This document shows, piece by piece, positions 19,834 to 19,905 of a stretch of 24,893 nucleotides of DNA (within the stretch, counting starts at the first letter, position 1; every line of letters starts with the position of its first letter). The position numbers and the translations under genes are program-made. The notes under the pieces are model-generated. The model was not told the origin of the DNA. It was given only the letters and a program-made list of their open reading frames with translations, and did not search any database. This DNA comes from a virus, in IMG/VR virus record IMGVR_UViG_3300042549_000268, positions 1 to 24,893 of that record, one strand, 5' to 3'.

Positions 19834-19905
19834 ATGTGGACAAAACCATCAGCAACTGAAATGCGTTTCGGCTTTGAAGTAACCATGTATATTTGCAATC
19901 GTTAA
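19834..19905 (+). CDS. pqqA: PqqA, coenzyme PQQ precursor peptide
   Basis: A 23-codon gene with an AGGAG site at 19821-19825, eight bases from ATG 19834. The peptide begins [14 protein letters not shown] and contains E15-V-T-M-Y19, the E-x3-Y motif of PqqA whose Glu and Tyr side chains become the PQQ ring system. It ends ICNR; the xNR end and 23-24 residue length are those of the family. In bacteria PqqD presents the peptide, the radical SAM enzyme PqqE cross-links Glu to Tyr, and proteases and PqqB/PqqC finish PQQ, the cofactor of periplasmic methanol and glucose dehydrogenases. No other pqq gene is in the window, so the phage would feed host enzymes. The in-frame ATG at 19828 is too close to the Shine-Dalgarno. 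Peptide identity is clear; metabolic benefit is inferred. Confidence 0.9.
   Translation: [23 protein letters not shown]

Follow-up and report, generated by a model that had tools for sequence, protein, structure and literature searches.

The precursor peptide gene pqqA in a MEP301-like phage fragment and in phages of methylotrophs

Cyanophages carry auxiliary metabolic genes such as psbA, which supply a short-lived or consumed host product and so sustain energy metabolism while the cell is infected. While psbA encodes a photosystem protein, PqqA is a ribosomal substrate that is turned into a small cofactor, pyrroloquinoline quinone (PQQ), and one PqqA is consumed per cofactor. Here we describe a 23-codon pqqA gene in a 24,893-bp (24.9-kb) linear fragment record of IMG/VR, IMGVR_UViG_3300042549_000268, the whole of which is referred to as the window. 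A viral PqqA was reported in 2020 in the Lake Baikal population VP_266, which also encodes a methanol dehydrogenase, and its authors proposed a boost to methanol oxidation (PMC7678222). Viral PqqA as a kind is already known from this one report, a point on which the first-pass annotation of the window had been unsure. No further report was found in the open-access literature, subscription papers and preprints being outside the scope, and in the papers checked on the phages Melnitz, MEP301, MEP401/402 and Venkman pqqA is not named as a viral gene. The two cases are alike in that a methylotroph virus encodes the PQQ precursor peptide, but VP_266 is one metagenomic population with a methanol dehydrogenase, whereas the peptide described here usually occurs alone, in five isolate lineages and at least 120 contigs, and with a leader stem. 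What appears to be new is how widely the gene occurs, the gap in its annotation, its peptide-only pattern and its leader. The orphan pqqA genes of host Methylophilaceae, which are dispersed and lie away from pqqBCDE, share the peptide type and the ribosome-binding site with the phage genes; they differ in being chromosomal and in the lower frequency of a stem 5' of the ribosome-binding site (19% vs 44% in phages).

The gene and its occurrence in phages

The peptide of the window matched both curated models over the whole profile, scoring 43.3 bits with Pfam PF08042 (PqqA, cut-off 21.1) and 44.7 bits with the equivalog model NCBIfam TIGR02107 (cut-off 20), and it contains both residues of E15-x3-Y19 that are joined into PQQ, confirming that the gene encodes a full PqqA. 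The frame, the good Shine-Dalgarno element and the full-length peptide were recovered exactly as first annotated (Table 1). An Rfam scan gave merely sub-threshold matches to unrelated families. The C-terminal pattern [VI][MC]N[KR] is of the Methylophilaceae type and not of the Pseudomonas type: PqqA of this family begins with MWT[TK] and ends with [MC]N[KR], and the phage peptides share that type. Since the capsid is also closest to that of an OM43 phage, the host is likely a methylotroph, in line with the original proposal. With phage genes on both sides and a peptide of host type, the gene is an auxiliary metabolic gene in the sense of a host-type metabolic gene inside a phage genome.

To find the gene in named phages, we compared the window peptide with 50,697 phage records by tblastn (E up to 10), which matched 13 records. 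Nine of these were Methylophilales/Methylophilaceae phages of five lineages (Venkman, MEP301, MEP401/402, P19250A and, with four records, Melnitz), one was the environmental podovirus MW202481, two were Acinetobacter 'phage' contigs and the last was a weak match (E 9). The Acinetobacter match, at 64% identity, indicates that tblastn was able to detect distant PqqA. One such record, CAKLQF020000010.1 ('Acinetobacter phage MD-2021a'), is really host chromosomal DNA with a complete pqqABCDE operon. The SAR11 phage HTVC008M, described as closely related to Melnitz (PMC10580990), was present among the records and gave no tblastn match to PqqA. Every Methylophilaceae phage record returned from the collection has pqqA; MEP431-434 (Pelagivirus) were not among the phages found, and the genome of HIM624-A is partial. 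The genes flanking pqqA differ from lineage to lineage, which suggests separate acquisitions. What the five lineages share with the window is pqqA itself; they differ in that their records leave it unannotated or draw an antisense 'hypothetical' across it, and PHROGs holds no family matching phage PqqA. The expectation that so short a gene escapes gene calling was thereby borne out, and auxiliary metabolic genes of 20-25 codons appear to be missed systematically.

In environmental phages, the codon pattern for GFEVTMY was found in at least 120 IMG/VR contigs, nearly all of them encoding complete W-x2-P...E-V-T-M-Y peptides preceded by a ribosome-binding site, while the same codons in reversed order gave 7 matches, all to one unrelated conserved protein and none to PqqA, a contrast that excludes chance. 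Another PqqA type, searched for as R-x-GMEVT-x-Y, was present in none of the phage contigs, and R-x-GFEVTAY was present in five, with peptides resembling Methylophilaceae-like variants. A PqqA of yet another type was encoded by the phage contigs L004, L013, L018, L024 and L028, which may come from phages that infect other PQQ producers.

The neighbouring phosphoesterase was used as an anchor so that relatives were not chosen by the peptide. In the phosphoesterase tree, the clade of the window has 22 members, of which 19 have pqqA and the remaining three have less than 0.3 kb of downstream sequence, so that all 19 informative members carry the gene. Among whole records anchored in the same way, 35/48 have it. 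With the capsid as the anchor, the two almost complete contigs (34-36 kb) whose capsid is at least 95% identical both have it. Thus, pqqA does not vary in presence within the near clade or among the methylophage records returned, and it is patchy in the wider kin. In one 36.5-kb contig (L321, record G046) pqqA lies near both ends, at positions 76 and 34290, suggesting overlapping contig ends and a genome of about 34.2 kb.

Selection on the frame and the leader stem

As copies found by the codon pattern are biased in codons 13-19, we computed selection on 44 distinct copies found through their neighbours. Purifying selection was evident (pN 0.122 vs pS 0.50, pN/pS about 0.25), and entropy in the same set was highest at third codon positions (0.85 vs 0.36 and 0.26). 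E15, T17 and Y19 were invariant among the phage copies; the repeated search, made by regular expression, required E, T and Y, and an independent HMM search of whole records found nothing outside that set. Neither the frame nor E15/Y19 was lost in related phages, a loss that had been named beforehand as evidence against the gene. A Shine-Dalgarno-like element precedes all 147 distinct phage copies.

Some phage peptides depart from the ordinary form. EHRIGFE variants such as MWTSPAATEHRIGFEITCYAMTR occur at L264, L265, L275, L312, L399, L400, L401 and L403, some of them at the locus that ordinary PqqA occupies in close relatives of the window. A phage variant of this kind scored near the TIGR02107 cut-off (21.9 vs 20), and one EHRIGFE peptide, compared with 300 genomes of the order, had best matches of only about 70% identity.

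Just 5' of the Shine-Dalgarno element, the window has a stem-loop (Table 1). With a stem defined as at least 6 bp with its 3' end 16-27 nt 5' of the ATG, 44% of 98 non-redundant phage pqqA leaders carried one, compared with 12% (sd 3) of dinucleotide shuffles, 17% of intergenic starts before other phage genes and 19% of host pqqA leaders. The 43 stems comprised 39 different arm pairs (TATACAC/GTGTATA, TGTACAC/GTGTACA, TACGCA/TGCGTA and others). Pairing is thus kept while the sequence varies, as would be expected of an RNA hairpin more than of a fixed operator, and the stem may affect the stability or the translation of the mRNA. The window has a second dyad before pqqA, AT-rich and farther upstream (GTATATACAATGTATATAT; region 19759-19814; relatives L249-L260), and L249 and L250 have an upstream arm, ATTGCTTGT, that complements the leader stem, an arrangement suggestive of two alternative hairpins. 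Promoter-like sites upstream of phage pqqA were slightly enriched (10% vs 4% scoring at least 10, against a crude control).

A proposed supply of the precursor peptide and competing explanations

The phage gene was not accompanied by pqqE, which scored above its cut-off in 0/50 phage contigs with pqqA; in Methylophilaceae genomes it did so in 56/60. All 120 sampled Methylophilaceae genomes have pqqA, with a mean of 4.3 copies and two or more in 114, and the copies are dispersed, up to 12 per genome, away from pqqBCDE. Hosts have been described with 3-12 pqqA beside a single pqqBCDEFG (PMC4109929), indicating that they multiply the substrate and not the enzymes, a rule of host genomes that is seen in their phages too and that agrees with the earlier suggestion that the phage supplies the peptide alone. 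In an OM43 strain, no transcript is more abundant than that of xoxF (PMC5120137); with the stoichiometry given above, precursor supply is a plausible limit. One 72-kb IMG/VR phage contig (L043, record G191, C1:34049-35731) has both pqqA and a PQQ-dependent alcohol (methanol) dehydrogenase, a pairing that resembles the Lake Baikal report. In a genome of the order (L418, genome G446, contig C60), tandem pqqA copies lie about 370 bp apart.

We consider it probable that the phage provides the substrate that PQQ synthesis uses up while the PqqB-E of the host do the chemistry, and the overall interpretation of the first-pass annotation is supported. The gene would have been acquired from Methylophilaceae hosts and retained by selection, and would be transcribed in the infected cell either as the last gene of the rightward late arm or from its own promoter, with the leader probably stabilizing the transcript or holding the ribosome-binding site open. 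Host PqqD would bind the 23-aa peptide and host PqqE would cross-link E15 and Y19, after which host proteases, PqqB and PqqC would mature the cross-linked peptide into PQQ, one peptide per cofactor. The added PQQ could convert newly made XoxF/MxaF methanol dehydrogenase to the holoenzyme, and methanol oxidation, the energy supply of the cell, would thereby continue during infection, to the benefit of the phage. The presence of pqqA in every Methylophilaceae phage record returned suggests that methylophages feed raw material to host energy metabolism. A broader claim, which we put forward tentatively, is that precursor-only carriage is a convergent, near-universal strategy of obligate-methylotroph phages, taking the form of a mini-module of hairpin, ribosome-binding site and 23 codons that pipelines miss, in some cases with variants not found in hosts.

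Several observations weigh against a supply of useful precursor. Hosts already have several copies, so that it is not obvious what one more would add; an own sigma-70 promoter was not established, the scan having found none on the + strand of the window; on the phosphoesterase tree, 13 or more changes are required to account for the presence of pqqA in the wider kin; and among capsid-anchored relatives the gene was present in 3/20 records (3/10 of those of at least 31 kb). This patchiness, together with the many dispersed host copies, favours a hitchhiker, that is, a small, abundant, mobile host cassette picked up repeatedly without benefit to the phages. Yet the low pN/pS and the invariant E, T and Y are unexpected for a useless passenger, and the constancy of the gene in the informative clade members, its presence in five unrelated methylophage lineages, the Shine-Dalgarno element before every distinct copy and the compensating leader stem likewise make a hitchhiker unlikely. 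The EHRIGFE variants, which were not found in 187 Methylophilaceae genomes, also count against simple supply, and with their scores close to the cut-off they could point to a peptide that serves as a signal, or as a decoy or competitor of PqqD/PqqE, and blocks or diverts PQQ synthesis or RiPP (ribosomally synthesized and post-translationally modified peptide) chemistry in the host. One would expect a decoy to have lost a reactive residue, whereas most phage peptides match host PqqA exactly or almost exactly and retain E15, T17 and Y19, as a substrate would, and the phage contig with an additional PQQ methanol dehydrogenase is consistent with a rise in PQQ and not with a fall; we regard this explanation as very unlikely.

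Host DNA mislabelled as phage does occur, as the Acinetobacter operon mentioned above illustrates, and a chance reading frame or binned host DNA would be an artefact. For the window, host contamination is ruled out by the surrounding phage genes and by the same gene in sequenced phage isolates, and a chance pattern by the reversed-codon control; as selection also acts on the frame, an artefact is extremely improbable.

If precursor supply holds true, an overlooked viral gene connects infection by phages with the oxidation of methanol in oceans and lakes, and PQQ precursor supply becomes a candidate bottleneck in infected methylotrophs. This is directly testable in cultured pairs, namely Melnitz and Venkman on H5P1 and MEP401/402 on FZCC0133.

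Phage context of the window

Table 1. Coordinates of pqqA, its leader elements and neighbouring features in the window
Feature	Position	Strand	Basis
pqqA, 23 codons, encoding the precursor peptide of PQQ	19834..19905	+	ATG...TAA; PF08042 and TIGR02107 matches; relatives
Shine-Dalgarno AGGAG of pqqA	19821..19825	+	read in the sequence, 8 nt 5' of the ATG
Leader stem-loop TATACACA-ATGA-TGTGTATA, just 5' of the Shine-Dalgarno	19795..19814	+	folding
Major capsid protein (MCP)	26..868	+	78.9% identical to the MCP of OM43 phage MEP301
Endolysin (phage lysozyme)	18244..18810	+	Pfam PF00959, phrog_7
Calcineurin-like phosphoesterase, upstream neighbour	18811..19572	+	Pfam PF00149, phrog_221; peptide-independent anchor
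Hairpin CCCCCTATGC...GCATAGGGG then TTTTTT, probable terminator between two arms	19963..20011	+	sequence reading

To the left of pqqA lie the capsid, tail and virion genes, a holin-like gene and the genes for the phage lysozyme and the calcineurin-like phosphoesterase, and the rightward arm ends with pqqA as its last gene. This agrees with its first description as the end of the late arm after lysis and phosphoesterase genes, with both neighbours now identified. The 'T7-like' label given at the same time is doubtful. The nearest named relative by capsid comparison is MEP301, which encodes neither RNA polymerase nor DNA polymerase (PMC8024684), so that 'T7-like' is not safe as a label; as regards the single-subunit RNA polymerase by which T7-like phages are judged, the window is a fragment and MEP301 encodes no RNA polymerase. 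The hairpin 3' of pqqA is GC-rich, with six T after it, and was not listed by a simple terminator scan because its loop is long. Beyond it begins a leftward arm with genes for a single-stranded DNA-binding protein (SSB), an exonuclease and a Sak-type annealing protein.
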